NCBI GenBank assembly: GCA_030148805.1
Contig: JASBSS010000035.1
Coordinates: forward strand, 434,001 to 498,000
Direction: 5' to 3'
DNA from: Thiogranum sp.
Lineage (GTDB): Bacteria; Pseudomonadota; Gammaproteobacteria; DSM-19610
Length of the DNA: 64,000 bases
In this document: positions 1,268 through 14,291 of the stretch, one piece after another
Position numbering within the stretch: the first letter of the stretch is position 1
Layout: each line of letters begins with the position of its first letter
The notes under the pieces: generated by a model
What the model was told of the DNA's origin: nothing
What the model saw: the letters and a program-made list of their open reading frames with translations, nothing else
Database searches by the model: none
Made by a program: the position numbers and the translations under genes

Positions 1268-2200
1268 TCAGGTGTGCTTGAGGACCGCGGATATCTGTCG
1301 CAGGGCCTCGGACAAATCGTCTCCAGCGACGATCGCGCCAGCGTTCGCTATTGCCTCGCCGTGACGTGCCGCCAGTTCGCCACCGATGAATACGGGGATA
1401 GCGACGCTCTGCACCAGTTCCGGTAACTGCTTTTCAAGCAGTGTTCCCCCGGATTGCGCCGAACCCGACAACACTACCGCTTCGCACTGGCGGCGCGCGA
1501 GCACTGCCGGCACCTGTGTCACCGGTAGATTGGCGCCCAACAGCAGCACCCGATAGCCGTGGCTGACCGCGTTCAAGGCGAACAACAGTAGACCGAGGTC
1601 GTGATATTCGCCGGGTACGCAGGCCAGCAGCAGGCGCGGGCCATTGCCCCGCGCGTTGCTGTGGTGCACATGGCTGCCGATGCGATTGCGCAGATAGACG
1701 CTGAAGAAATGCTCCTCGGCGACCCCGGTGGCGTGGGCTTCCCAGCGCTCGCCCAGGTGACGCAGCACCGGTACCGCCAGGTTGCGGATGACGAGATCGA
1801 CGGGGTAGAGCGAAAGGGCGTCGTTGTAGGCCGAATCCAGGGCGGCCTCGTCGAAAAGTTCGATCGCGCGCAGCATGCGCGCGCGGTACTCGGGCCAGAC
1901 CCCTGCGCTCGGCGCGGCCGGAGGGCGGCGCAGCGTGCTCGTGGCGGTCTCCAGCAGGGGTTTGACCTGACCGATGGAGATTCCCTGCTCCAGCAAGGCG
2001 AGTATCCCCTGGATGCGGGCGATATCCGCGGCGGTGTAGAGCCGGTGACCCTTGGGCGTGCGCTGCGGGCGAATCAGTCCATAGCGGCGTTCCCACGCCC
2101 TCAGGGTGACCGCCGTCACCCCGGTCTGGGCGGCGACGGTGCGGATGGGATAGAGTGCGACGTTTTCCGATCGGGCGTGCCCGCCCAGGGTCTGTGCCAT
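1268..2200 (-). CDS. MerR-family regulator with B12-binding domain (CarH/LitR-like photoreceptor)
   Basis: 310 residues. Residues about 15-85 form a MerR winged-helix domain (TLRAWERRYGLIRPQRT). Residues about 100-180 form the helical cap and about 187-308 a Rossmann B12-binding domain. The cap carries Wx9EH exactly (W153, E163, H164), and the B12 domain carries ExHxxG (E198, H200, G203), where the His is the lower cobalt ligand in CarH. CarH/LitR proteins bind adenosylcobalamin, repress in the dark and release DNA on light. The residue after W153 is Glu, whereas as I recall Thermus CarH has a His there that ligates cobalt after photolysis. Position directly upstream of a photolyase fits light induction of repair. 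The ATG at 2200 has a GGGAG Shine-Dalgarno. Confidence 0.9.
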   Translation of the reverse strand: MAQTLGGHARSENVALYPIRTVAAQTGVTAVTLRAWERRYGLIRPQRTPKGHRLYTAADIARIQGILALLEQGISIGQVKPLLETATSTLRRPPAAPSAGVWPEYRARMLRAIELFDEAALDSAYNDALSLYPVDLVIRNLAVPVLRHLGERWEAHATGVAEEHFFSVYLRNRIGSHVHHSNARGNGPRLLLACVPGEYHDLGLLLFALNAVSHGYRVLLLGANLPVTQVPAVLARRQCEAVVLSGSAQSGGTLLEKQLPELVQSVAIPVFIGGELAARHGEAIANAGAIVAGDDLSEALRQISAVLKHT

Positions 2201-2323: not shown

Positions 2324-2396
2324 CTAAAGCCGGGAACCCAGGATGTTACCATGGTGTCCTGGTTGACGATTGCGACCCGAACCCACAGGAGGACTT

Positions 2397-3149
2397 ATGT
2401 TGTTCAAGCAGCTGCAGGAGCCGGATTCGAGTACTTACACCTACTTGCTGAGCTGCCCGCAAAGCGGCGAGACGGTGCTGATCGATCCGGTGCTGGATAC
2501 CGTGGAGCGCGACCTGCAGGTGTTGCAGGAGCTGGGTTTGTCGCTGACGTATACGCTGGATACCCATATCCACGCCGATCACCTCAGCGGCGCCCACCGG
2601 CTGCGAGCGCTGACCGATTGTCGCATCGCCTATCCCGCCATCGACAATCTGGCTTGCGCCGATATCGGTGTGAAGGAGGGCGAAGCGTTCCGCGTGGGGC
2701 AGATAGAGATCCACCCTTTGTTCACGCCCGGGCACACCAACCACCACCACGCCTACCTGATCGACAACGGCACGCAGAAAATGCTGTTCAGCGGGGACGC
2801 GCTGCTGATCGAGGCGTGCGGGCGCACCGACTTTCAATCCGGCGACGCCGCGACGCTCTACGCCAGCATCCACGAGAAGTTCTTCACCCTGCCCGACGAA
2901 ACCCTGGTCTACCCCTGCCACGATTACGAGCAGCGCTACGTCTCCACCATCGCCCAGGAAAAGCAGCGCAATCCGCGCCTGGGCAAGGGCAAGACCCTGG
3001 AGGAGTTCATCGCCATCATGGATGCCATGGATCTGCCGTACCCGCGCAAGATCGATTTCGCGGTCCCGGGTAACGAACAGTGCGGACAGTGCCCCGACAA
3101 TGTCCCCGAGGCCTATCGCGGCCCCTGTGGCATGCGCGACCAGGGCTAG
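2397..3149 (+). CDS. Persulfide dioxygenase (ETHE1-like metallo-beta-lactamase fold)
   Basis: 250-residue cytosolic non-heme iron enzyme that oxidises glutathione persulfide to sulfite in sulfide detoxification. The MBL metal motif is THIHADH (about residues 57-63), followed by the H of TPGHT, the SGDALLIEACGRTDF stretch typical of ETHE1-type enzymes, and the C-terminal His in YPCHDYEQR. The tail carries three extra cysteines (CGQC and GPCGM) that I do not associate with the common ETHE1 ending. The start at 2397 has a strong AGGAGGA site, so an in-frame upstream start at 2370 is unlikely. Its stop overlaps that of the convergent BCCT gene in the tetranucleotide CTAG. Full length and complete. 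Confidence 0.9.
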   Translation: MLFKQLQEPDSSTYTYLLSCPQSGETVLIDPVLDTVERDLQVLQELGLSLTYTLDTHIHADHLSGAHRLRALTDCRIAYPAIDNLACADIGVKEGEAFRVGQIEIHPLFTPGHTNHHHAYLIDNGTQKMLFSGDALLIEACGRTDFQSGDAATLYASIHEKFFTLPDETLVYPCHDYEQRYVSTIAQEKQRNPRLGKGKTLEEFIAIMDAMDLPYPRKIDFAVPGNEQCGQCPDNVPEAYRGPCGMRDQG

Positions 3150-4741
3150 GCGCGCGAGCCCTGCCGGGCTTGCTGATCGGCAGCCAGCGCGCGTTGCAGA
3201 CTGAGCATCAGCAGCCACAGCAGGACCGCGAACGGCAGGCCAGCGGAAATCGCCGCGGTCTGTAGCGCCGTCAGGCCGCCGCCGACCAGTAACACGGCGG
3301 CGACGATGCCCTCGGTGGTGGCCCAGTAGACGCGCTGGGCCGGCGGCGGGTTGGGGTGCCCCCCGGCGGTGATGATATCGATCACCAGCGAACCGGAATC
3401 CGACGAGGTGACGAAGAAGCTGACAATGACCAGCGTCGCCAGGATACCGCTGGCGCGGATCAGGCCCTCCGGCCAAGCGCTCAGTCCGCCGGCCAGCGGC
3501 AGCTTCTCGAGAAAGGTGAACAGCGAGCGGGCCAGGTCGCTCTGTACCGCCGCGACCAACCCCCCGGGGCCGTTGAGTTCGATGTACATGGCGGAATCGC
3601 CGAACACGGACAGCCAGACGAAGGTCAACAAGGTGGTGGCCAGCAGCACGAAGGCGAGAAATTCGCGCAGCGTGCGGCCGCGCGAAATGCGCGCGATGAA
3701 CATGCCGACGAACGGCGACCAGGCGATCCACCAGCCCCAGAAAAACACCGTCCAGCCGTTCTGCCAGTGTCCCTGCGTGTAGGTCTCGTTCCAGAAGCCT
3801 AGATAGAAGAAGTCGTTCAGGTAAAGGCCGAGATTTTCGACCAAGCCGTTGAGCACGAACAGCGTGGGACCGACCAGCAGCACGTAGAGCAGCAGCGCCA
3901 CCGCCAGCAGCATGTTGAGGACCGACAGTCGCTTGATCCCCTTGTCCAGTCCCAGCACCACCGAGACGGTGGCGATGGCGGTGATCGCGCCGATCAGCGC
4001 GACCTGGATGCCGGCGCCAACGCTCAGCCCGAACAGATGGTTGAGCCCGGCGTTGATCTGGGTGACCCCCAGCCCGAGCGAGGTGGCCACCCCGAACAAG
4101 GTCGCGACGCTGGCCACCACATCGATCAGGTTGCCCCAGAAACCGTGGATGCGCTCGCCCAGCAGGGGTTGGAATATGGCCCGGATACTCAACGGCTGGT
4201 CGCGATTGAAGCTGAAATAGGCCAGCGCCAGGCCGGTCAGGGCGTACACCCCCCAGGCGTGCAGACCCCAGTGGAGAAACGTCGTCTTGATGGCGTCTTT
4301 ATAGGCGGCCAGGGTGCCGGGGTCCGCCCCGTGCGGCGGACGGGCGAGGTGGTAGAGGGGTTCGGCCACGGCATAGAACATCAGGCCGATACCCATGCCG
4401 GCCGAGAACAGCATGGCGAACCAGGTGGCACGGCTGAATTCCGGGGTGGCCTGCGGGCCGCCGAGACGAACGCCGGCGTAGGGCCCCAGACCAAGGTAGA
4501 GGAGATAGGCCAGCACCAGGTTGACCGTGAGCACCAGGAACCAGCCGGTCTGATTGGCGATCCACGCCTGCAGCACGTTGACACTGGCGGAGAAGTCGTC
4601 GAAGTAGAACAGGCTCAGCCCGACGAAGAGCACGATCAGCGCCGAGGCGCCCAGAAACACCGCCGGATTGAGATCCAGCCAGATGCGGCCCTTGCGGTCG
4701 CGCAGTGCGCGGTTGCCCCGCGTGGGGCTGTGCGTGTCCAT
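3146..4741 (-). CDS. BCCT-family betaine/carnitine/choline transporter
   Basis: 531 residues with about 12 hydrophobic segments; a sodium- or proton-coupled secondary transporter in the inner membrane. The family signature is clear in NGWTVFFWGWWIAWSPFVGM, including the tryptophan box, followed by ARISRGRT. It is the last gene of the long leftward osmolyte operon, 15 bp after SDMT, which points to betaine uptake or retrieval of leaked betaine. Length is typical for BctP/OpuD-type members. The substrate cannot be fixed from sequence; betaine is inferred from context. Confidence 0.93.
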   Translation of the reverse strand: MDTHSPTRGNRALRDRKGRIWLDLNPAVFLGASALIVLFVGLSLFYFDDFSASVNVLQAWIANQTGWFLVLTVNLVLAYLLYLGLGPYAGVRLGGPQATPEFSRATWFAMLFSAGMGIGLMFYAVAEPLYHLARPPHGADPGTLAAYKDAIKTTFLHWGLHAWGVYALTGLALAYFSFNRDQPLSIRAIFQPLLGERIHGFWGNLIDVVASVATLFGVATSLGLGVTQINAGLNHLFGLSVGAGIQVALIGAITAIATVSVVLGLDKGIKRLSVLNMLLAVALLLYVLLVGPTLFVLNGLVENLGLYLNDFFYLGFWNETYTQGHWQNGWTVFFWGWWIAWSPFVGMFIARISRGRTLREFLAFVLLATTLLTFVWLSVFGDSAMYIELNGPGGLVAAVQSDLARSLFTFLEKLPLAGGLSAWPEGLIRASGILATLVIVSFFVTSSDSGSLVIDIITAGGHPNPPPAQRVYWATTEGIVAAVLLVGGGLTALQTAAISAGLPFAVLLWLLMLSLQRALAADQQARQGSRA

Positions 4742-4756
4742 GGAAAACTACGCGCC

Positions 4757-5596
4757 TCAGGCGGGTTTGCGCATCTGCACGATGCCCCAGGCGAGATAGC
4801 CGTTGTAGGCGGCATCCACCCAGTGTCCCAGTCCCTGGATCATGCGATCGATGTAGTCATCGGAGACCTTGTCGTGCAGTTCCTCGCGCCGCAGCGCCAG
4901 TTCCTGGCGCACGCGGCTGTAGTGGGTCAGCAACTGCGGCGTGAGATCGGTGACACTGAGTTCCTCCCAGCCCAGGCGAGCGGCCTGCTGGCGATAGAAC
5001 GCGAACGACCCGAGCGTCTCCAGGTGAATGCGATCCAGCACCGGCTGCAGCACGCCCTCCGGACAGTCGTCGGCCTGCATCGGGTCGGTGAAGATGAATT
5101 CGCCGCCGGGTTTGAGCACGCGGTCGACTTCGCTCAGCACTTCGGCGCGCTGGCCCGAGTGCAGCAGCGCGTCCTGGGACCAGGCCAGATCGAAGCCGCC
5201 ATCGGGAAACGGAATCTGTTCGAAGCTGCCGTCGACGACCTCGATCCTGTCGGTCAGCGCCGCGGCCTCGGTCAGCGCGCGGTTGCGCGCGTTCTGTGCT
5301 TCGCTGAGGTTCAGGCAGGTGACGTGGCAGCCGTAGCTGCGCGCCAGCGAGCGCGCGGCGCCGCCGTAGCCGGCACCCAGGTCGATGACGCGCGAGGTGG
5401 CGTCCAGGTTCGGCACCTGTTTGGCCATATTGGCCACGGTGCGACCCGAGGCGATGGCGATATCCTCCTCGGCGTGGGCGTAGTTGCCGATGTGGATGTC
5501 CTGGCCGCCCCAGATATGGAAATAGAAATTGTCCGCATCGTCGCTGTTGTAGTACTCCTGCGCCGTCTTGACCGCCTGAGAATAGGACTGGCTCAT
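4757..5596 (-). CDS. Sarcosine/dimethylglycine N-methyltransferase (SDMT)
   Basis: 279 residues, very close to the Halorhodospira SDMT length. Catalyses the SAM-dependent methylations sarcosine to dimethylglycine to glycine betaine. The SAM-binding motif I is VIDLGAGYGG (about residues 69-78), with later FDLAWSQDALLH and LKPGGEFIFTDPM motifs. The N terminus (AQEYYNSDDADNFYF, IWGGQDIHIGNY) is characteristic of the GSMT/SDMT and related small-molecule methyltransferases. The start is the ATG at 5596, which overlaps the GSMT stop as ATGA; the open frame extends upstream to 5851 but that part is GSMT in another frame. Works in sequence with GSMT. Confidence 0.93.
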   Translation of the reverse strand: MSQSYSQAVKTAQEYYNSDDADNFYFHIWGGQDIHIGNYAHAEEDIAIASGRTVANMAKQVPNLDATSRVIDLGAGYGGAARSLARSYGCHVTCLNLSEAQNARNRALTEAAALTDRIEVVDGSFEQIPFPDGGFDLAWSQDALLHSGQRAEVLSEVDRVLKPGGEFIFTDPMQADDCPEGVLQPVLDRIHLETLGSFAFYRQQAARLGWEELSVTDLTPQLLTHYSRVRQELALRREELHDKVSDDYIDRMIQGLGHWVDAAYNGYLAWGIVQMRKPA

Positions 5597-6408
5597 TGCG
5601 GGTCCTCCGGGATATAGCGTTTTTCGGCCACGTGGATGAAGAAATCCGGCTCGTGCTCGCGGTAGGTCTCCTTGAAGTCGCCATAGGTGGTGACCCGTTG
5701 AAAGCCGACCTCCTGCATCAGGCGCTGGGTGTAGTTCTTGCGCAGCGGGAACATATTGAGATGGTAGGTCGAACCGTCGGAGAAGCGATAGCGGAAGCGC
5801 GCCAGCGAGTCGTCGACGTATTCGGGCGAGGCCGAAACGTCTTCGCCGCAATAGTAATAGTTGTGCGTCGGCTCGATCTGCTTGTCGAGGATGGCGTCGT
5901 AGTTGCGCTGGTCGAGGATCAGGATGCCGTCGTGGCGCAGGGTGGCATAGTATTCGGCCAGAGCCTTGCGCCGATCCTTTTCATCGTGCAGGTGGGTGAA
6001 GGAGTTTCCCAGGCAGATGACCGCGTCGTAGAGATCGTGCACATCCCGGTTCAGCCAACGCCAGTCGGCGTGGATGGTGCGCAGGATATGGCCACGTTTG
6101 CGCGCGTTGTTGAAAGCGCGCGCCAGCATCTCCGGGCTGCCGTCGGCGCTGGTGACCTCGAAGCCGGCCTTCAGCAGCTGCACGGAATGAAAGCCGGTGC
6201 CGGTGGCGACGTCCAGCACTTTCTCGGCGCCATGTTCCTTCAGAGTCCGGATGAAAAAGTCGCCTTCGGCCTGGGCGCGTCCTTCCCAGTCGATCAGCTC
6301 GTCCCATTTCTCCACAAAGGAGTGGACGTATTCCTCTTTGTATTTGTCGGTATCGCGGACGCTAAGTGGATCCTGACCGTAGTCTTGTTGAGCGGGTGAA
6401 TAAGTCAT
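5593..6408 (-). CDS. Glycine/sarcosine N-methyltransferase (GSMT)
   Basis: 271 residues, the usual length for bacterial GSMT. Transfers methyl groups from SAM to glycine and sarcosine, the first steps of de novo betaine synthesis in halophiles such as Halorhodospira halochloris. SAM motif VLDVATGTGFHS lies at about residues 64-75, and the family stretches KYKEEYVHSFVEKWDELIDW and YDAVICLGNSFTHL are present. GAGG lies at suitable distance from the ATG at 6408. The 4-bp overlap with SDMT indicates translational coupling. Presence of both methyltransferases means the cell can make betaine from glycine without imported choline. Confidence 0.94.
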   Translation of the reverse strand: MTYSPAQQDYGQDPLSVRDTDKYKEEYVHSFVEKWDELIDWEGRAQAEGDFFIRTLKEHGAEKVLDVATGTGFHSVQLLKAGFEVTSADGSPEMLARAFNNARKRGHILRTIHADWRWLNRDVHDLYDAVICLGNSFTHLHDEKDRRKALAEYYATLRHDGILILDQRNYDAILDKQIEPTHNYYYCGEDVSASPEYVDDSLARFRYRFSDGSTYHLNMFPLRKNYTQRLMQEVGFQRVTTYGDFKETYREHEPDFFIHVAEKRYIPEDPQ

Positions 6409-6451: not shown

Positions 6452-8458
6452 TCAGGGATGCCAGCCGAGCCGTTGCGCGGTCTCGCGCGCCTGGCGCGGA
6501 ACGTCGGCGGCGACGAAATGCTGGTGCAGGATCTGCACGCCCAGCAGGTGGTTGATGCTGGCGTCGAGCTGGACCTGGGTGGCGGTTCCGGTTTCGGGTG
6601 CCTCGTGCAGCGCAAACAGTGCCGCCACGCCTGCCGGATCGAGCAGGCCGGCTTCACGGATGGCCGACGGGGTGAGATGGCGGGCGGCCAGGTCCTGCAC
6701 GGCCGCCCATTTTTTGGGATCGGTATGGGCGGGGGGCGCCATGAAGGCGAATTTTTCACGCTTGTAGAGCACTTCCGGCAACAGGCCCTGCATGGCTTCG
6801 CGCAGCACGTATTTTTCCGTGCGGCCATGGATGCGCATCGACGGCGGCACGCTGGCGGCATAGGCGGCCAGGTGGTGGTCGAGAAACGGCGGTCGTGCCT
6901 CCATCGAGTTGGCCATGTCGACGCGGTCTCCACCCCAGGTCAGTATCTGACCTTCCAGCATGGTTTTGATCCATACATACTGGGCCTTGTCCAAGGGGTG
7001 GCGCTGGTCGAGCATGTCGCGGTCGAACTGCTCGGCGATCGCCGCGCCCGGGTCGTAGTCGCGCAGGTCGGCGCCGAGGTCGGGGTCGAGCAGCGCCGGC
7101 ACGTGCTCGGCGGCGGCCAGCCACGGCTGCAGGCATGACGGCGTAAAACCGATGCGCTCGGTCAAGGCGGCATTCTCCACCGCGTTTTCAGCCAGCATGG
7201 CGCCCTTGAACAGCTTGTTGCTTTCAGCCAGCAGCGCCTCCCATTCCTGGCGCTCCCGTGGCTGCAGGTGGTCGAGGCCGTGGAGAAACATGTCGCGGCG
7301 AAAGGCCGGGTAGCCGCCGAACAGTTCGTCCGAGCCCTCGCCGGTCAACACCACTTTGTAGTTCACTTCGCGCACCCGGCGGCTCATCAGGAACTTGGCC
7401 ACGCCGAGGGTGTTATAGATGGTGCGCTCGGTATGCCACAGAGTCTGCTCGAAGTGATCGTACAGGTGGTCGGAATCCAGCCGCAGGATCTCCTGTTCCG
7501 CGCCGGTGGCTTTCGCCATCTCGGTGGCGATGGGCGTTTCGTCGTAATCCTTGTTGTCGAAGCCAATGGTGAACGCGCGCACCGGATCCTGGCTGGCCGC
7601 GGCCGCCAGTCCGAGAATGGCACACGAATCGATGCCGCCCGACAGATAGCTGCCCACGGGAACGTCGGCCGTGAGTCGATGTTGCACGGCTTCCAGCAAC
7701 TGGGCCCGTACGCCGTCGATGTACTCCTGTTCGGCGTAATCGGTGGCATGATCGGCCTCAAGCGGAAATTCCATGTCCCAGTATTTGCGTTCCTCGATGT
7801 GCAGCCGCCCGTCCTTGCGTTTTACCTCGAGGACATAGCCGGGGCGTACCTGCTGGATGCCCTCGAAAGCGGTGGTGCCGGGCACCATCGTCTGCATCAA
7901 CTGGTGGTACAGCCCCTGGGGCGAGAATTTGCGCGGCACCTCGGGGTGGGCGAACAGCACTTTGAGTTCGGAGCCGAACACCAGCGTGCCGTTGACTTCG
8001 GTCCAGTACAGCGGTTTGATGCCGAAGCGGTCGCGCACCAGCATCAGTCGGTCGGTGTTCTTGTCGAACAGGGCGAAGGCGAACTCGCCGCGCAGATGCG
8101 GCAGGGTTTTTTCCAGGCCGTGGCGGCGATACAGATGCAGCACGATTTCCGAATCGCTCTTGGTCTGGAACACATCGCCGCGCGCCGTCAGGTCGGCGCG
8201 GATACGCTGGTAGTCGTACAGCTCGCCGTTCTTGGTCAGCATCAGCCGGCCGTCGGTGGTGCGAAAAGGCTGCCGGCCGCGGCTTTCGTCGAGGTCGATG
8301 ATCGACAGCCGCGCGTGGCTGAAACCCACGCCGTTCATGCTGCACCAGCCGAACCCGTCCGGGCCGCGGTGATACTGGATGGCGGCCATCGCCACCAGCG
8401 TCTCCGGGTCCACGGGTCGGTCGCGATCGGCGTGCATAAATCCGGCAATACCACACAT
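6452..8458 (-). CDS. Asparagine-synthetase-like glutamine-dependent amidotransferase
   Basis: 668 residues with class II glutaminase domain (mature Cys2 in MCGIAGF; residues 2 to about 210) and a synthetase domain with the PP-loop SGGIDS at 273-278 and a downstream GEGSDELFGGYPAF motif. All visible catalytic motifs are intact, so it should use glutamine and ATP to turn a carboxylate into an amide. The family includes true AsnB and paralogues such as AsnO that amidates a dipeptide in the NAGGN osmolyte pathway. It lies 19 bp after a carbamoyltransferase and before GSMT/SDMT, far from any amino-acid biosynthesis gene. I infer a role in amidating an N-carbamoyl amino acid rather than housekeeping asparagine synthesis, but ordinary AsnB activity is not excluded by sequence. 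Confidence 0.9.
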   Translation of the reverse strand: MCGIAGFMHADRDRPVDPETLVAMAAIQYHRGPDGFGWCSMNGVGFSHARLSIIDLDESRGRQPFRTTDGRLMLTKNGELYDYQRIRADLTARGDVFQTKSDSEIVLHLYRRHGLEKTLPHLRGEFAFALFDKNTDRLMLVRDRFGIKPLYWTEVNGTLVFGSELKVLFAHPEVPRKFSPQGLYHQLMQTMVPGTTAFEGIQQVRPGYVLEVKRKDGRLHIEERKYWDMEFPLEADHATDYAEQEYIDGVRAQLLEAVQHRLTADVPVGSYLSGGIDSCAILGLAAAASQDPVRAFTIGFDNKDYDETPIATEMAKATGAEQEILRLDSDHLYDHFEQTLWHTERTIYNTLGVAKFLMSRRVREVNYKVVLTGEGSDELFGGYPAFRRDMFLHGLDHLQPRERQEWEALLAESNKLFKGAMLAENAVENAALTERIGFTPSCLQPWLAAAEHVPALLDPDLGADLRDYDPGAAIAEQFDRDMLDQRHPLDKAQYVWIKTMLEGQILTWGGDRVDMANSMEARPPFLDHHLAAYAASVPPSMRIHGRTEKYVLREAMQGLLPEVLYKREKFAFMAPPAHTDPKKWAAVQDLAARHLTPSAIREAGLLDPAGVAALFALHEAPETGTATQVQLDASINHLLGVQILHQHFVAADVPRQARETAQRLGWHP

Positions 8459-8477: not shown

Positions 8478-9536
8478 TCAGGCAAAGGTTTTGAGAATGG
8501 TCGAGAGCAACGCCATGCGCATGAACACGGCGCCGCGCGCCTGGGCGAAGTACCAGTTGTGCTCGGTGCCGTCCAGGTCGCGCGCCAGCTCCGCGCCGCG
8601 CGCCAGCGGATGCAGAATGGCAGAGCCCGGCTTCAACGGCGAGGCGGCGCTCAGGCCGTAGCGCGTTCCCAGCTCCTTGTAGTTGTCGCCGACCCAGGCG
8701 ATGGTGTTGATGTACACCACGTCCAGCTCGGGCAGTTCCTTTTGCATATCGGCGCTGATGCGAAACTTCAGCCCGGCGCCTTCCAGCTCCTCGCGTTGGC
8801 CCGGGACGAACGGCTCGGGCTCGTCGGTGATGATGAGCACTTCCTCGAACGCCGGCGCGAAGCGTGACATGAGAATCAGTAGACTGCGCACGGTACGCAT
8901 CACGCCGGGCACGCCGATGATGGCGAAACGGATGCGCTGGCTGGCGTCGATGCTGGCATCGCACAGCGCCGGGCGCCATTTGAGCAGGGCATAGATATCG
9001 GCCATCGCCTGGGTGGGATGTTCGTCGGTGCCGTTGCCGCCGTTGACGATGGGGATGCGCAGCGATTCGAGCATTTCGTACACCGCTTTTTCGTTGCTGT
9101 CGCGCAGCACTACCAGGTCGCTGTAGTGGTTGAGCATCTCGCCGACGTCGAACAGGGATTCGCCCTTGGCGATGCCGGTGGAGGCCGGGTCGGTGATCGA
9201 CATGATGTCGCCGCCGAGGCGATGCCAGGCGCTTTCGAACGACAGCCGGGTGCGGGTGCTCGGTTCGTAGAAGGCGCTGACCAGAATTTTCCCGGTCAGC
9301 GGTCGCACGCTCAGTTGCGGCTGGGTCTCGTAGCGCGAGGCCAGGCGCGCCAGCTGCAGCAGCTGCTCGCGACTGAACTGGCTGGCGGAGACCACCGGTC
9401 GCTGCACCAGGTCGAGCAGCGAGGTCAGATCCTCGGGGATGCGGTTGAGCAATTCGCGTGGTTGTTCGAAGCCCTGGATGTCCAGGGGCTGATCCTCGAG
9501 CGGATCAAGCAGTTTGCGGCTGTATTTGTCTACCAT
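8478..9536 (-). CDS. Divergent ATCase-like carbamoyltransferase, probably not PyrB
   Basis: 352 residues against about 310 for PyrB; residues 1-48 are an extra N-terminal segment. The carbamoyl-phosphate site is intact: STRTR 93-97, K124, R145, HPTQ 173-176, an RTVRS helix at 214-218 and HPLAR 309-313 (HPLPR in ATCase). The loop that binds the aspartate carboxylates in E. coli ATCase (R229 and Q231 in a TRVQKER context) is replaced by DVVYINTIAWVGDNY (272-286), without Arg or Gln. The acceptor is therefore probably not aspartate. Neighbours are an amidotransferase and, upstream, an N-carbamoyl hydrolase; no pyrimidine gene is near. Proposed reaction: carbamoylation of glutamine or a related amino acid. 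The ATG at 9536 overlaps the preceding 40-residue gene by 7 bp. Confidence 0.85.
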   Translation of the reverse strand: MVDKYSRKLLDPLEDQPLDIQGFEQPRELLNRIPEDLTSLLDLVQRPVVSASQFSREQLLQLARLASRYETQPQLSVRPLTGKILVSAFYEPSTRTRLSFESAWHRLGGDIMSITDPASTGIAKGESLFDVGEMLNHYSDLVVLRDSNEKAVYEMLESLRIPIVNGGNGTDEHPTQAMADIYALLKWRPALCDASIDASQRIRFAIIGVPGVMRTVRSLLILMSRFAPAFEEVLIITDEPEPFVPGQREELEGAGLKFRISADMQKELPELDVVYINTIAWVGDNYKELGTRYGLSAASPLKPGSAILHPLARGAELARDLDGTEHNWYFAQARGAVFMRMALLSTILKTFA

Positions 9537-9652
9537 AGTTGCTTCCTCTTCCAGTCGCGGATCAGCAGCGCGAGCAACAGCAGCGGGGCGGCGGTGGTGA
9601 TAGCCAGGGCGCCCAGCACCAGGGCGGAAAAGACGGTCAGGGGCATGGTCAT
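9530..9652 (-). CDS. Small membrane protein, symporter accessory type (40 aa)
   Basis: A 40-residue frame that starts MTMPLTVFSALVLGALA, has one transmembrane helix and ends in a basic tail (RDWKRKQLW). It starts in an ATGA overlap with the sodium symporter stop and ends 7 bp inside the carbamoyltransferase gene, so it is translationally tied on both sides. Sodium:solute and sodium:pantothenate symporters are often encoded next to such tiny one-helix subunits; the role is probably stability or activity of the symporter. The tight overlaps and membrane-protein composition support it as real despite its size. Confidence 0.75.
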   Translation of the reverse strand: MTMPLTVFSALVLGALAITTAAPLLLLALLIRDWKRKQLW

Positions 9653-11100
9653 GACTGGGTGTCCATGTGCAGGGGATGATCTTCACGCAGCTGTGCCCAA
9701 TCGAAGGCGCGCGGCGCCAGCCAGGTGCCGAGCAGCACGCAAACCATGGACACCGCGGCGCCCACCAGGGCGGCGACGTAGAAACCGATGGCGAAATAAC
9801 TGTACAGGCCGGCGGCGCTGCCCAGCACCATGCCGGCGACCGCCGCGGCTGGGTTGGTGCGCCGCCAGAACAGGCCGGCGGCGATCGGCCAGATGGTGCT
9901 GGCGACAAACGCCCCGGTGAAATACAGCAGCTCGGCGAGCGTGGTCAGGCGGGGCGCGCAAAGTATCCAGGTGAGCACGCCCAGGCCGACGATGATGCGC
10001 GCGGCGGCGCGACGCATCTGTTCGGCACTGGCGTGGGGCTTGAAATGCCGGCGGTAGATGTCTTCGACAATGAGTATGCTGGTGGCGGCCAGCAGCGAAT
10101 CGAGACTGGAGGAAAGCGCGGCAAACACCATGATCAGCACCAGCACGGCGCCGGTGACGCCGAGCAGATCGGCGGCCACCATCGGGCCGACCATGTCGGC
10201 GGCGGGGATGTTGATGTTCAGCGCCGGCACCGCCAGGGCGACAAAGCCGGCGACAATCGGAATCGGCGCCCACAACAGTCCCGCCAGGGTATAGGCCTTG
10301 AAACCGACGCCCTCGCGAAAGGAAAACGCGCGGCTCCACCAGACGTTGGAGTGGAAAACCTCGCCGATGCCGAACAACAGGTTGTTGAACAGGAACATGA
10401 TGGCCGCCGGCATCAGCAGATTCAGCAACTCCGGGCGCTCGGCGAGCACCGCGCTGTGGATGCTGGAGAAGCCGACCTTGCCGATGGCCAGAAACGCGAT
10501 CACCACCAGGCCGACCAGAATCAGCAGCGCCTGGATGAAGTCGGTGCCGATCACGGCGCGGAAACCGCCGAGCAGGGTGTAGCCGACGCAGATCGCCAGA
10601 ATGACGGTCATGCCGTAGTGATAGGGGATTCCGGTCAGGGCGTGGATCAGGATGCCGCCGGCCATGCCCATGCTGACCAGCCAGCCCAGGCTGTAGAACA
10701 GGGAGATGGCGAGAAAGACCCGCCAGGCGGTGTTACCGTAGCGGATGCGTACGAAGTCGCCGCTGGTGTAGCCGTTGGGCATCAGACTCCGAATGCGGGT
10801 TGCCAGCGGCGCGAACAGCAGCAGTCCGATCGAGCCCAGCGAGTAGCCGAGCATCCCCCAGACGCCGATTTGAAAAGCCAGTTGCGGCGCCGCCATGGTG
10901 GTGTTGCTGGTCACCCAGGTGGCCATGGCGGTGGCCGTGCCGAGCGCCAGGCCCACGCGGCGCCCGGCCAGCACATATTCGTCGAGCTGGCCGGCGTTGC
11001 GCCCCCAGTACCAGCCCAGCGCCACCCACAGCAGCGAAAAGCCGGCCAGGATCGCCCAGCCGGTGGAGGCGTCGAGAATGGCGCTGTTGACGCTGTTCAC
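9649..11100 (-). CDS. Sodium:solute symporter (SSS family)
   Basis: 483 residues with about 13 hydrophobic segments and the typical SSS core (GRNAGQLDEYVLAGRRVG near the N terminus, then WVTSNTTMAAPQLAFQIG). Inner-membrane sodium-driven importer. Its ATG overlaps the stop of the amidase gene by 4 bp, and its stop overlaps the start of the 40-residue accessory protein. Position inside the osmolyte operon, between degradation-type and synthesis-type enzymes, suggests uptake or recapture of the operon's carbamoylated solute or of its amino-acid precursor. Substrate specificity cannot be read from the sequence; SSS members carry sugars, amino acids, ureides and vitamins. Confidence 0.9.
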   Translation of the reverse strand: MNSVNSAILDASTGWAILAGFSLLWVALGWYWGRNAGQLDEYVLAGRRVGLALGTATAMATWVTSNTTMAAPQLAFQIGVWGMLGYSLGSIGLLLFAPLATRIRSLMPNGYTSGDFVRIRYGNTAWRVFLAISLFYSLGWLVSMGMAGGILIHALTGIPYHYGMTVILAICVGYTLLGGFRAVIGTDFIQALLILVGLVVIAFLAIGKVGFSSIHSAVLAERPELLNLLMPAAIMFLFNNLLFGIGEVFHSNVWWSRAFSFREGVGFKAYTLAGLLWAPIPIVAGFVALAVPALNINIPAADMVGPMVAADLLGVTGAVLVLIMVFAALSSSLDSLLAATSILIVEDIYRRHFKPHASAEQMRRAAARIIVGLGVLTWILCAPRLTTLAELLYFTGAFVASTIWPIAAGLFWRRTNPAAAVAGMVLGSAAGLYSYFAIGFYVAALVGAAVSMVCVLLGTWLAPRAFDWAQLREDHPLHMDTQS

Positions 11101-11837
11101 GCGTCCACCACCGCCTGCAGCTCGGCGATCGCCTCCGCCGTGGTCAGTACCCGCGCATAGCGGTCTTTCATCGTGGTGATGGTGGCTTGCTGCAGGTCCG
11201 GGGTCACGGTGGCGCAGCCGTCGGAGATCAGGGTGACGTAGAACCCCAGGTCACAGGCGTCGCGGATGGCGGTGGAGACGCATTCGTTGCTGTAGACGCC
11301 GACCACGAACAGCCCGTCGATTTTCAGATTACGCAGCACATATTCGATATTGGTGCAGTTGAACACGCCGCTGGCGGTCTTGTTGATCACGATCTCGTTT
11401 TCCAGCGGGGCCACCGCCTCGATGAACTCCGCGTCCTTCGAGCCCGGCGGCGCGTGCAGCCCGAGGCGCTTGTGCCCGGGCCCGCGGTCGCGGCCGTCGC
11501 GGGTCAGGGACTGGATCCGGGTGTGGATCACCTCGAGCTGGCGGGCGCGAAAGGCCGCCTGCAGACGGGCCACGTTCGGCAGCACCGTCTGCTCCAGACG
11601 GTCGAAGTAATAGTCCTGGGCCTCCACCGGCACGCTGCTGGTTTCGGCATTGGCAAACACACCGTGGCCGCGGGCGGCATCGAGGTACTGGATATCGATG
11701 CACAGCAGCGCGGTGTCATGGTGCTGCAGCGATTGCTGGACCCCCGCGGCATGGGTGATGGAGCTGCGATACGTGTCGCGTAAGGGATCGACGTCAGCGA
11801 ACTCGTTTTCGTTTTCGATGGTTTCCTGCTTGCTCAT
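11097..11837 (-). CDS. Isochorismatase-fold cysteine amidohydrolase
   Basis: 246 residues. The catalytic triad of the cysteine hydrolase family is visible: D48 (LLCIDIQ), K153 (INKTASGVF) and C186 (YSNECVSTA). The family includes nicotinamidase, N-carbamoylsarcosine amidase, ureidoacrylate and biuret hydrolases, which open amides or ureido groups. About 35 residues precede the core, longer than usual. It follows the M20 hydrolase with no gap (stop at 11838, start at 11837). I infer hydrolysis of the primary amide, or ureido group, of the solute made by the downstream amidotransferase/carbamoyltransferase pair. The exact substrate is unknown; signalling or non-enzymatic roles are unlikely given the intact triad. 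Confidence 0.85.
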   Translation of the reverse strand: MSKQETIENENEFADVDPLRDTYRSSITHAAGVQQSLQHHDTALLCIDIQYLDAARGHGVFANAETSSVPVEAQDYYFDRLEQTVLPNVARLQAAFRARQLEVIHTRIQSLTRDGRDRGPGHKRLGLHAPPGSKDAEFIEAVAPLENEIVINKTASGVFNCTNIEYVLRNLKIDGLFVVGVYSNECVSTAIRDACDLGFYVTLISDGCATVTPDLQQATITTMKDRYARVLTTAEAIAELQAVVDA

Positions 11838-13079
11838 TTAACCCGCCAGTTGGTGTAGTGTATGCAGCAGCACATTGGCCCCCGCCTCGATATCGTTCCA
11901 GGCGGTCCATTCGGCCGAGGAATGGCTGCGGCCTTCCTTACTGGGGACGAAGATCATGCCCGCCGGCGCCACCGCCGCCACCACCTGGGCGTCGTGCGCG
12001 GCGCCGCTATTGATATGCGTGGCGTCCACGCCGAGTTTTTCCACCGCCGCTTCCACGGCGTTGCGCACCAGGCGGGCGCAGGGCACGGGCGCGATTTCGC
12101 TGAGAATCTCGTATTCGAACATCAGGCCTCGACGCCGCGCGATCGCCGCCAGGGTGCGCTGGAACGCGCCCGCCAGGCGCTCGAGGGTACTGGCGTCGGT
12201 GTCGCGCACGTCGAGCGAGAACACCGCCTGGCCGGGGACGACATTGGCCGCGCCCGGGTGCAGTTCGACCCGGCCGATGGTGGCCACGCTGGCCGGACCG
12301 CCGTGCTCTTCCAGCACCCGGTCGATCTGTCCGGCGAACTCGGTCAGCCCCTGGAAGGCGTCGGCGCGCAGATTCATCGGCGTGGTGCCGGCGTGGTTGG
12401 CCGCGCCGTTGAGCGTGACCTGCCATTTGAACAGGCCGGTGATGGCGTCGACAATGCCGACCGCCACGCCCTGGCGGTCGAGTATCGGGCCCTGTTCGAT
12501 ATGCAGCTCGACATAGGCGTGAATACTGCCCGGCGGGCGCTGGGCGTGCAGCGCCGCGCGCGCATCCAGGCCGCGCGCGGTCATGGCGTCGACCAGGGTC
12601 ACGCCCTCGAGATCGCGGGCGTTGTGCAACGACTCCGGGGTCACCTGGCCGGCCAGCGCCTGGGAGCCGAACAGACCGCCGAAGCGGCCTTCCTCGTCGC
12701 TGAAGGCGGTCGCCTCCAGCGGGCGCTTCAGGGGGAGGCCGGATTCCTTCAGGGTACGCAGTGCCTCCAGCGCGCAGAGCACGCCGAGCGCGCCGTCAAG
12801 GTGACCGGCGCCGGGGACGGTGTCGATATGCGAGCCTGCCATCACGCCGGCGACATCCTCGCGCCAGCCCAGGCGCGCATGGATGTTCGCCGCGCCGTCC
12901 TGATGCGCCTGCAGTCCGGCCGCCTCGATGCGCCCCAGCAGCCACTCCCGGGCCGCCATGTCGCCGTCGGAAAACGCCATGCGGTAGATGCCCTGGTCCT
13001 CACGCCGTCCGATACTGGCCAGATGCTCGATATCCGCGCGCAGACGGGCCGCGTCAATGTGCAAATCGGCAGGTCTCAC
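11838..13079 (-). CDS. M20-type Zn hydrolase (N-carbamoyl-L-amino acid / allantoate amidohydrolase family)
   Basis: 413 residues from a GTG at 13079 that overlaps the preceding stop as GTGA; the open frame continues upstream but overlaps the membrane-protein gene. The two-metal ligands of the AllC/L-carbamoylase group are present: H84 (AGSHIDTVP), D95 (HLDGALGV), E129/E130 (SDEEGRFG), H193 (LHIEQGP) and H386 (EGRSHSSAEW). The central dimerisation insert with ANHAGTTPMNLRAD is typical. The family removes carbamoyl groups from N-carbamoyl amino acids or opens allantoate. No other purine-catabolism gene is nearby, so the carbamoyl-amino-acid role fits better. It would release the free amino acid, CO2 and ammonia from the compatible solute or its acid. 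Confidence 0.88.
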   Translation of the reverse strand: MRPADLHIDAARLRADIEHLASIGRREDQGIYRMAFSDGDMAAREWLLGRIEAAGLQAHQDGAANIHARLGWREDVAGVMAGSHIDTVPGAGHLDGALGVLCALEALRTLKESGLPLKRPLEATAFSDEEGRFGGLFGSQALAGQVTPESLHNARDLEGVTLVDAMTARGLDARAALHAQRPPGSIHAYVELHIEQGPILDRQGVAVGIVDAITGLFKWQVTLNGAANHAGTTPMNLRADAFQGLTEFAGQIDRVLEEHGGPASVATIGRVELHPGAANVVPGQAVFSLDVRDTDASTLERLAGAFQRTLAAIARRRGLMFEYEILSEIAPVPCARLVRNAVEAAVEKLGVDATHINSGAAHDAQVVAAVAPAGMIFVPSKEGRSHSSAEWTAWNDIEAGANVLLHTLHQLAG

Positions 13080-13465
13080 GGCTGTTCCCCTGCACCGCGG
13101 GCGATGAGTGCCACGGTGGCGAGAAACACCAGGGCGCCGACGGCAAAAAAGGCCAGCGCGCGGCTTAGCGGGTGGTGCGCCACGGTCACGGTCACTGGTT
13201 TGCTCCAAGCGATGATGTTGCCCCCCGGTCCGACTTCGCCCGCACGATAAATCCGTGTCCCGTCGGTTTGGCCGGAAATCACCGTGGCGCGGTCCGGCCC
13301 GGTATAAAGGATATGGGCCCGTTGGCTGCCGGGAGTGCGGAACTCAATAGTGACCTGCGGGGTATCCGCCGTCCAATGCAATTGATAATACCCGGCGGTG
13401 GCCACCTGGGTGTCGCTGCCGAGCACCACGGCGGCGCCGGCGGTGGGGGCGCTCAGCAGCAGCAT
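13076..13465 (-). CDS. Small secreted/membrane-anchored protein of unknown function, start uncertain
   Basis: At least 129 residues: a signal-like hydrophobic start (MLLLSAPTAGAAV), a soluble beta-rich stretch of about 80 residues (TPQVTIEFRTPGSQRAHILY, then VISGQTDGTRIYRAGEVGPGG) and one C-terminal helix (ALAFFAVGALVFLATVALI) with a short basic tail. No family recognised. From the ATG at 13465 the signal peptide lacks a basic n-region; the same frame stays open upstream with RWACAAF just before it, so a longer protein is likely. Upstream there is no in-frame ATG, GTG or TTG, only an ATT at 13553-13555 behind GGGGAG. First gene of the operon, overlapping the M20 hydrolase by 4 bp. It would face the periplasm and might sense or buffer osmotic state; that is a guess. 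Confidence 0.6.
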   Translation of the reverse strand: MLLLSAPTAGAAVVLGSDTQVATAGYYQLHWTADTPQVTIEFRTPGSQRAHILYTGPDRATVISGQTDGTRIYRAGEVGPGGNIIAWSKPVTVTVAHHPLSRALAFFAVGALVFLATVALIARGAGEQP

Positions 13466-13600: not shown

Positions 13601-13700
13601 ATTCTAACCCAAAGCAATTTATATAAAAAATTCAATGGTTCAGCAGATGGGAATTTATAATTAACTGATTATTAAAATATTATTTATTTTCCGCTGTCTA
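13601..13700. promoter_or_regulatory. AT-rich divergent control region between the osmolyte operon and marR
   Basis: The gap between the leftward operon and the rightward MarR gene is strikingly AT-rich compared with its flanks. A TAGAAT -10-like hexamer for the leftward operon reads at 13606-13601, with only a poor -35 (TTTTTA). An imperfect inverted repeat, TTTATAAT then ATTATTAAA six bases later (13654-13676), could bind the MarR dimer. MarR-type EctR controls ectoine genes through pseudo-palindromes of this kind in other halophiles. No other gene-like feature is visible in about 13466-13766. Confidence 0.45.
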
Positions 13701-13766
13701 TGTAATAGTTTGGAGACAAATGATATTAACGTTCAGTTCACACGGTATGCAGGGTTGGACAGGCCG

Positions 13767-14291
13767 ATGGTCTTACATAACACCAAGGTCGATCAGGTAC
13801 TCAGCGCGCTGCGGCGGGTGATTCGTGCGGTCGATCTGCATTCGCGCCAATTGGTGCAAAGCCACGGCCTCACCGGACCGCAGGCGCTGGTCCTCAAGGC
13901 CTTGGGGAGTGCCAGTCTGTCGGCTGGCGCGCTGGCCGAGCAGGTCAGTCTCAGCCAGGGGACGGTCACGGACATTCTCAACCGGCTGGAGCAACGCGGG
14001 CTGGTCACGCGGCTGCGCTCGCAAAGCGACCGTCGCCGGGTCATGGTGGCGCTGGCGCCGGCGGGTCGCGAGTGCCTGGCCTCGTCGCCGCCCTTGCTGC
14101 AGGACCGCTTCGCCTCGCGCTTCGAGGAACTCGACGACTGGGAGCAGAGCCTGTTGCTGGCCTCGCTGCAGCGCATCGCCGCGATGATGGACGCCGAGGA
14201 GCTGGGCGCCGCGCCGGTGCTTTCCAGCGGTTCCGTGCGTGCCACGCCCGAAGCGGTGGAAAAGGTGGTGGAGCCTGGCGCCAATGAGTGA
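13767..14291 (+). CDS. MarR-family regulator, divergent from the osmolyte operon (EctR-like position)
   Basis: 174 residues from the ATG at 13767 (a TTG at 13710 would add 19 residues but lacks a Shine-Dalgarno). The winged-helix core is clear: LTGPQALVLKALG, SLSAGALAEQVSLSQGTVTDILNRLEQRGLV as helix-turn-helix, and RSQSDRRRVMVALAPAGREC as the wing. The N-terminal dimerisation helix RRVIRAVDLHSRQL resembles the EctR group that represses ectoine genes in halophilic methylotrophs, from memory. Divergence from the osmolyte operon makes that operon its most likely target. The last 8 bp overlap the next gene. Confidence 0.85.
   Translation: MVLHNTKVDQVLSALRRVIRAVDLHSRQLVQSHGLTGPQALVLKALGSASLSAGALAEQVSLSQGTVTDILNRLEQRGLVTRLRSQSDRRRVMVALAPAGRECLASSPPLLQDRFASRFEELDDWEQSLLLASLQRIAAMMDAEELGAAPVLSSGSVRATPEAVEKVVEPGANE

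Follow-up and report, generated by a model that had tools for sequence, protein, structure and literature searches.

Genes for a proposed pathway to the osmolyte carbamoyl-glutamine amide, built around a paralogue of aspartate carbamoyltransferase in Thiogranum

What does a relative of aspartate carbamoyltransferase (ATCase) do when the residues that would hold aspartate have been replaced? The question is raised by a gene in a stretch of 64,000 nucleotides from Thiogranum sp. (assembly GCA_030148805.1, contig JASBSS010000035.1, positions 434,001 to 498,000), here termed the window. The gene lies on the minus strand, with its ATG at position 9536 and its stop codon ending at 8478, and encodes a protein of 352 amino acids; the plus strand of the same interval is broken by internal stop codons. 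The features of the locus are as follows, the proposed functions being read from sequence.

3146..4741, minus strand: BCCT-family betaine-type transporter (TIGR00842, 489 bits, cut-off 407.55)
4757..5599, minus strand: sarcosine/dimethylglycine methyltransferase-like protein, glycine betaine synthesis (NF041675, 389.2 bits, below the cut-off of 550)
5593..6408, minus strand: glycine/sarcosine N-methyltransferase, glycine betaine synthesis (NF051855, 501.5 bits, cut-off 350)
6452..8458, minus strand: AsnB-type glutamine-dependent amidotransferase with MCGIAG nucleophile and SGGIDS loop; proposed to amidate an alpha-carboxylate
8478..9536, minus strand: carbamoyltransferase of the PyrB/ATCase fold with the aspartate-binding Arg and Gln replaced; proposed L-glutamine N-alpha-carbamoyltransferase
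9649..11100, minus strand: sodium:solute symporter (SSS), conserved beside the pair; proposed uptake of the product
11097..11837, minus strand: isochorismatase-fold amidase, accompanying the M20 gene; proposed removal of the 1-amide in breakdown, the reaction being a guess
11838..13079, minus strand: M20 hydantoinase/N-carbamoyl-L-amino-acid amidohydrolase, start codon not fixed; proposed removal of the carbamoyl group
13076..13465, minus strand: orf129, a small membrane-type protein; by eye, its hydrophobic N-terminus resembles a leader and a hydrophobic helix lies at the C-terminus; possible symporter accessory
13602..13623, no strand assigned: 22-bp block in the gap that separates the MarR gene from the operon; possible operator or promoter
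13710..14291, plus strand: MarR-family regulator, divergent from the operon

The carbamoyltransferase belongs to the aspartate/ornithine carbamoyltransferase superfamily, with Pfam scores of 125.6 bits for OTCace_N and 38.6 bits for OTCace. It is nearest to aspartate carbamoyltransferase, yet scores below the cut-off of that family (TIGR00670, 176.9 versus 236.95 bits), and alignment gives 31% identity with E. coli PyrB. The ornithine, putrescine and YgeW carbamoyltransferases have the superfamily and the carbamoyl-phosphate domain in common with it, but its scores fall far below their cut-offs (81.1 against 280.85, 74.4 against 500 and 31.8 against 500 bits, respectively). An AlphaFold2 model (pLDDT 89.3, pTM 0.89) was compared with solved structures. 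Among the matches listed the ATCases were best, with Z = 37.0 for 5iln_C; comparison with the PALA-bound ATCase 1d09_A gave Z = 36.1 and an rmsd of 2.0 Å over 298 residues, and among the matches listed by VIA-align the best 50 were ATCases throughout, a list so short that the lack of other families in it carries no weight. In a tree that included 8 of the 23 genome PyrB sequences extracted (the L189 PyrB was left out), the paralogues without the aspartate grip form one group (98/93) beside PyrB. Because the branches between families are long, we claim no more from the tree than the paralogue group itself.

The substrate site was aligned with E. coli PyrB, ArgI and YgeW, and with the PyrB and ArgF of the window genome. 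The residues expected to hold carbamoyl phosphate are all where they had been placed (STRTR 93-97, K124, R145 and HPTQ 173-176), and matches were found for E. coli S52, T53, R54, T55, K84, R105, H134, Q137 and R167. Residues 272-286 read DVVYINTIAWVGDNY, as originally stated, and HPLAR occupies 309-313; the original observation is confirmed. In PyrB, R229 and Q231 grip the side-chain carboxylate of aspartate, and R167 holds the alpha-carboxylate. The alignment pairs R229 with T278, Q231 with A280 and P268 with A312.

Is the altered pocket a property of the family? We aligned 51 sequences picked from the orthologues fetched, excluding one (L084) with an in-frame stop near the start of its match; partial sequences among the transferase relatives are one row of another alignment (L013) and three matches (L014, L015, L047). 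The equivalents of K84, R105, H134 and R167 are invariant in all 51, as is STRTR of the carbamoyl-phosphate site, and Q137 is kept in 50. The R229 position is occupied by A (31), S (14), T (5) or K (1), and the Q231 position by A (45), S (3), V (2) or L (1). The P268 position is A in every sequence, so that the change of HPLPR into HPLAR is universal here. N277 and W281 are new invariants, and the residue signature of the transferase is N-[AST]-I-A-[WF] with HPLARG. Had the Arg and Gln simply shifted within the pocket? No R-x-Q equivalent is present in the loop of any of the 51 aligned orthologues. The consistency across these sequences argues that the change reflects neither chance nor sequencing error. 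The aspartate-binding loop had been described as lost; its Arg and Gln are indeed gone, but the loop has been replaced and slightly shortened (by about 3 residues relative to E. coli PyrB, and by 4 relative to one archaeal ATCase) rather than simply lost. The extension of about 40 residues at the N-terminus is real by several signs: G22, P26, L29, E35, L40 and L43 are nearly invariant in the 51-orthologue alignment, the MVD start is common to the four rows compared, and AlphaFold2 predicts helices within it. Set beside the PyrB catalytic chain (TIGR00670), the enzyme is alike in its fold (Z about 36-37), its carbamoyl-phosphate residues and the four invariant equivalents; it is unlike it in the replacement of R229, Q231 and P268, the shorter loop, the extension, the score below cut-off and a clade of its own.

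Could the protein nevertheless be an ATCase adapted to salt, with a rebuilt aspartate pocket, that serves pyrimidine synthesis next to an asparagine synthetase? ATCase is its closest fold and sequence family, and the neighbouring amidotransferase scores above the general asparagine synthase cut-off (TIGR01536, 442.3 versus 267.1 bits). However, a separate protein above the TIGR00670 cut-off was found in each of the 24 carrier genomes searched, the paralogues all lying below it, and the 23 carrier PyrBs that were read (of 24; that of L189 was not extracted) all contain the R-L-Q motif. In the window genome the PyrB-like gene adjoins a dihydroorotase-like gene, the latter read by eye (L028), and ArgF adjoins an aminotransferase resembling ArgD (L029). 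Since all 24 carriers tested encode an ordinary PyrB, we regard the carbamoyltransferase as separate from the ATCase of the cell. The absence of both aspartate-binding residues across 51 orthologues and the TIGR00670 score of 176.9 against 236.95 bits also speak against a salt-adapted ATCase, and a scan of proteins from the operon and its neighbourhood revealed no further pyrimidine gene. We consider this explanation very improbable.

The strictest companion of the carbamoyltransferase is the amidotransferase, the gene for which lies directly downstream after a gap of 19 bp. The carbamoyltransferase occurs in 23 of the 369 genomes of the window's class (at least 60% identity) and the amidotransferase in 23 of the same 369 (at least 68% identity, the next best match being 39% with none between); compared by eye, the two lists are of the same 23 genomes. 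We also named the best 80 loci of 574 relatives, which gives a lower bound. The pair is adjacent in 75 of these 80. In two of the best 80 of 574 (L098, L123) the two hydrolases alone lie between transferase and amidotransferase, two more are cut by the end of a contig, and in one, Thiorhodospira sibirica (L086), there is no amidotransferase within 10 kb and a copy with 71% identity elsewhere in the genome. T. sibirica (L086, L214) has thus kept both genes unlinked, and no hydrolases or symporter were found around either. A distant transferase homologue (L216, G502:C3:402000-418000) from another class of the phylum, with 44-46% identity, is the sole match in 398 genomes besides the window's own; there the order orf129, symporter, transferase and amidotransferase (53%) is that of the window. 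Its transferase retains HPLARG, and W281 has become F. Going by record title, orthologues outside the Gammaproteobacteria are seen in a Leptospiraceae MAG (L123) and a Hyphomicrobiaceae MAG (L112), which could represent transfer or misbinned contigs. Within the window's genus the pair is patchy, the transferase being found in 7 of 17 genomes including the window's; one of the seven copies is a fragment at a contig end, and several of the other genomes are incomplete.

We compared the residues of 72 linked amidotransferases (more than 480 residues matched) together with that of the window. The Cys nucleophile and the Asp of the SGGxDS loop are kept in 73/73. The position of E. coli AsnB Arg325, mutation of which abolishes activity according to PMC8496222, is a gap in all 73, but also in 7/7 NAGGN amidotransferases and in 7/7 other AsnB-like proteins, and its loss therefore proves little. 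The acidic GEGSDE motif of E. coli AsnB is kept in 73/73, whereas Q replaces the first E in the NAGGN enzymes (7/7). In a computational model of human ASNS described in PMC6748925, these acidic residues are assigned to the amino and carboxylate groups of aspartate. An amino group already carbamoylated would not need them, and the kept motif thus favours amidation before carbamoylation, or a different acceptor. The evidence from the amidotransferase pocket is mixed, and we rest no proof on it.

The genes upstream of the pair suggest uptake and breakdown. The M20 enzyme scores 382.9 bits against TIGR01879 (cut-off 204), and its nearest solved relative is the N-carbamoyl-L-amino-acid hydrolase 3n5f (298 bits). 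The top NCBIfam match of the amidase is biuret hydrolase, far below cut-off (72.8 versus 370), and orf129 has no match in Pfam or NCBIfam. Among the 70 loci with room within the best 80 of 574 relatives, the symporter is present in 61, each of the two hydrolases in 55, and orf129, ahead of the symporter or operon, in 52. The hydrolases co-vary (56 versus 57 loci among the best 80 of 574); the exception is L091, which starts within the operon. The Ectothiorhodospira loci keep the hydrolases and have no symporter; Kangiella and the Idiomarina relatives keep the symporter, and hydrolases are absent there at 50% identity or above, although the Kangiella loci have an M20 gene of 43% identity nearby on the opposite strand. 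The symporter and hydrolases vary between loci and the pair stays, which argues that synthesis is the core of the system and that uptake and breakdown are optional.

This variation bears on whether the operon is catabolic, importing a carbamoyl compound from outside and degrading it, with the carbamoyltransferase working in reverse to give carbamoyl phosphate. In favour is the presence of a symporter, a carbamoylase and an amidase in one operon. Yet the strictest partner is an amidotransferase that consumes ATP, and the amidase is absent from 15 loci longer than 20 kb, including those of Kangiella and the Idiomarina relatives, with the pair still present in 14 of the 15 (among the best 80 of 574). 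In addition, no match to carbamate kinase was found among the ten operon and neighbour proteins scanned. A catabolic role is accordingly improbable in our judgement, though less so than the salt-adapted ATCase.

Pocket, separate PyrB in 24/24 carriers, partner amidotransferase and operon agree in supporting the original prediction of a new acceptor, one that would lack a side-chain carboxylate. What might it be, and what product would result? Known operons offer a parallel. That for NAGGN in Pseudomonas aeruginosa is described in PMC8070244 as having a divergent MarR repressor, an AsnB-type amidotransferase, a ligase and a peptidase, the product being a neutral amide derived from glutamine. 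As portrayed there and in PMC1224877, the NAGGN operon (asnO/ngg with MarR PA3458) and the window operon are alike in an AsnB-type amidotransferase that caps a glutamine derivative (in the window, putatively), a hydrolase and a divergent MarR gene, and NAGGN and the product that we propose below would both be osmolytes with masked charges. They differ in that NAGGN synthesis uses a GNAT-type ligase, where the window has its carbamoyltransferase. Is the window amidotransferase then the NAGGN enzyme, AsnO? It is not: it scores 314.9 bits against TIGR03104 (cut-off 570.1), and in a tree the linked amidotransferases form a 100/100 clade separate from that of the NAGGN enzymes, also 100/100. Since it fails both comparisons, and since the first enzyme is a carbamoyltransferase, we conclude that the window operon works like the NAGGN operon without being a member of that family. 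A NAGGN amidotransferase is encoded elsewhere in the window genome (G000:C28:68788-70545, 919.9 bits against the cut-off of 570.1), which may in consequence make three amide or betaine osmolytes.

The betaine-synthesis and BCCT genes follow the amidotransferase with gaps of 43, -6 and 15 bp, and glycine betaine synthesis is probably co-transcribed with the operon in the window. The two methyltransferase genes occur in 5 of 64 loci with room (among the best 80 of 574 relatives).

We propose that the product is carbamoyl-glutamine amide (CGA), which is glutamine with exactly one carbamoylation and one amidation. An enzyme that has kept the Arg for the alpha-carboxylate and lost the grip on a side-chain carboxylate, with an amidotransferase added, would match this chemistry. 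The ATCase-like enzyme would carbamoylate L-glutamine on its alpha-amino group, with carbamoyl phosphate as the donor; the R167-equivalent Arg would grip the alpha-carboxylate, and the replacements of R229 and Q231 would fit the amide side chain. The AsnB-type enzyme would amidate the alpha-carboxylate at the expense of ATP, with a second glutamine as the source of ammonia, and the result would be a ureido-amide without charge. The symporter may import CGA, and when salt falls the amidase and the N-carbamoyl-amino-acid hydrolase would break it down to glutamine, CO2 and ammonia.

CGA was reportedly first described, as a salt-protecting compound, by Galinski and Oren in 1991. Ectothiorhodospira marismortui is the only organism from which it is reported in PMC3857566 and PMC1224877; it is a minor solute there, and PMC3857566 mentions a Raman study that did not see it. 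The assembly of E. mobilis DSM 4180 (FOUO) is that of the E. marismortui type strain (PMC8877833), and we infer that the 1991 work used this strain. Its locus (L068, NZ_FOUO01000006.1) has the hydrolases, the transferase and the amidotransferase behind a MarR gene, and is adjoined by a sucrose synthase gene (1182 bits, cut-off 810.4). The presence of the pair in the type strain of the reported producer supports CGA as the product, and the context (the betaine genes of the window, the sucrose synthase of E. marismortui and the likeness to the NAGGN operon) supports a role as an osmolyte. Among the matches listed, carriers include Thioalkalivibrio, Kangiella, Idiomarina, Aliidiomarina, Thiohalophilus and Ca. 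Thiodiazotropha. These are marine or haloalkaliphilic bacteria. Taking these lines together, we put at roughly three in four the probability that the operon serves the biosynthesis and recycling of CGA, and that it is more widespread than the one known producer. Counting against CGA are the kept GEGSDE motif, its minor share among the solutes of E. marismortui and the Raman result, the loci that lack the symporter or the hydrolases, and the patchy occurrence of the pair within the window's genus.

Might a pathway of the same kind make another ureido-amide, a cousin of CGA from a different neutral amino acid such as asparagine, or a product modified only once? The pocket tells us only that the grip on a side-chain carboxylate has gone, N277 and W281, though invariant, are not enough to single out glutamine, and the amidotransferase retains the acidic pocket of asparagine synthetases. 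Against this, the sole known producer of CGA carries the pair, and the open-licence PMC literature yielded no further osmolyte that is a carbamoylated amide. Such a cousin is unlikely, though we give it more weight than any other alternative to CGA.

Glutathione amide is known from purple sulfur bacteria. The amidotransferase might therefore make this compound, with the transferase an unrelated neighbour, and PMC8877833 gives signs of glutathione amide in the Ectothiorhodospiraceae. According to the same source, however, glutathione reductase was not found in E. mobilis or E. marismortui, both of which bear the pair. Moreover, transferase and amidotransferase co-occur one to one, and the pair is also found in Kangiella and Idiomarina. 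Of the explanations considered, we find this the least credible.

If CGA is indeed the product, these would be genes for a compatible solute for which none were found in the open-licence PMC literature, and CGA would be predicted in many bacteria with no prior report of it. It could be common in those of the sea and of soda lakes, such as Thioalkalivibrio, Kangiella, the Idiomarina relatives and clam symbionts. Thiorhodospira sibirica, previously without annotated osmotic genes, would gain an osmolyte. Glutamine, or its amide, would be added to the few acceptors of the carbamoyltransferase superfamily. With somewhat less confidence than in the operon function itself, we suggest that this is probably a third kind of neutral amide osmolyte pathway, in which a carbamoyltransferase aimed at glutamine and a C-terminal amidotransferase are joined by plug-in uptake and breakdown, and that CGA is a common osmolyte.

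The CGA unit may be controlled by the MarR protein acting as a repressor. Scans of the gap between the MarR gene and the operon for promoters and inverted repeats yielded, apart from the shared 22-bp block, no decisive result. The window and two related loci have this block letter for letter, and it is absent from the rest of the 216 loci searched; the matches are L016, L018, L048 and L050, but these are apparently just two places, each represented twice (L016/L048 and L018/L050). The MarR proteins of the window and of E. marismortui are 33% identical over 103 residues, and the E. marismortui gene is oriented in the same way as its operon; given this identity and the differing orientation, the two may not be orthologues. 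At the far side of the osmolyte genes lie a CarH-like MerR regulator with B12-binding domains (1268-2200, minus strand) and a hydrolase of the metallo-beta-lactamase fold (2370-3149, plus strand).
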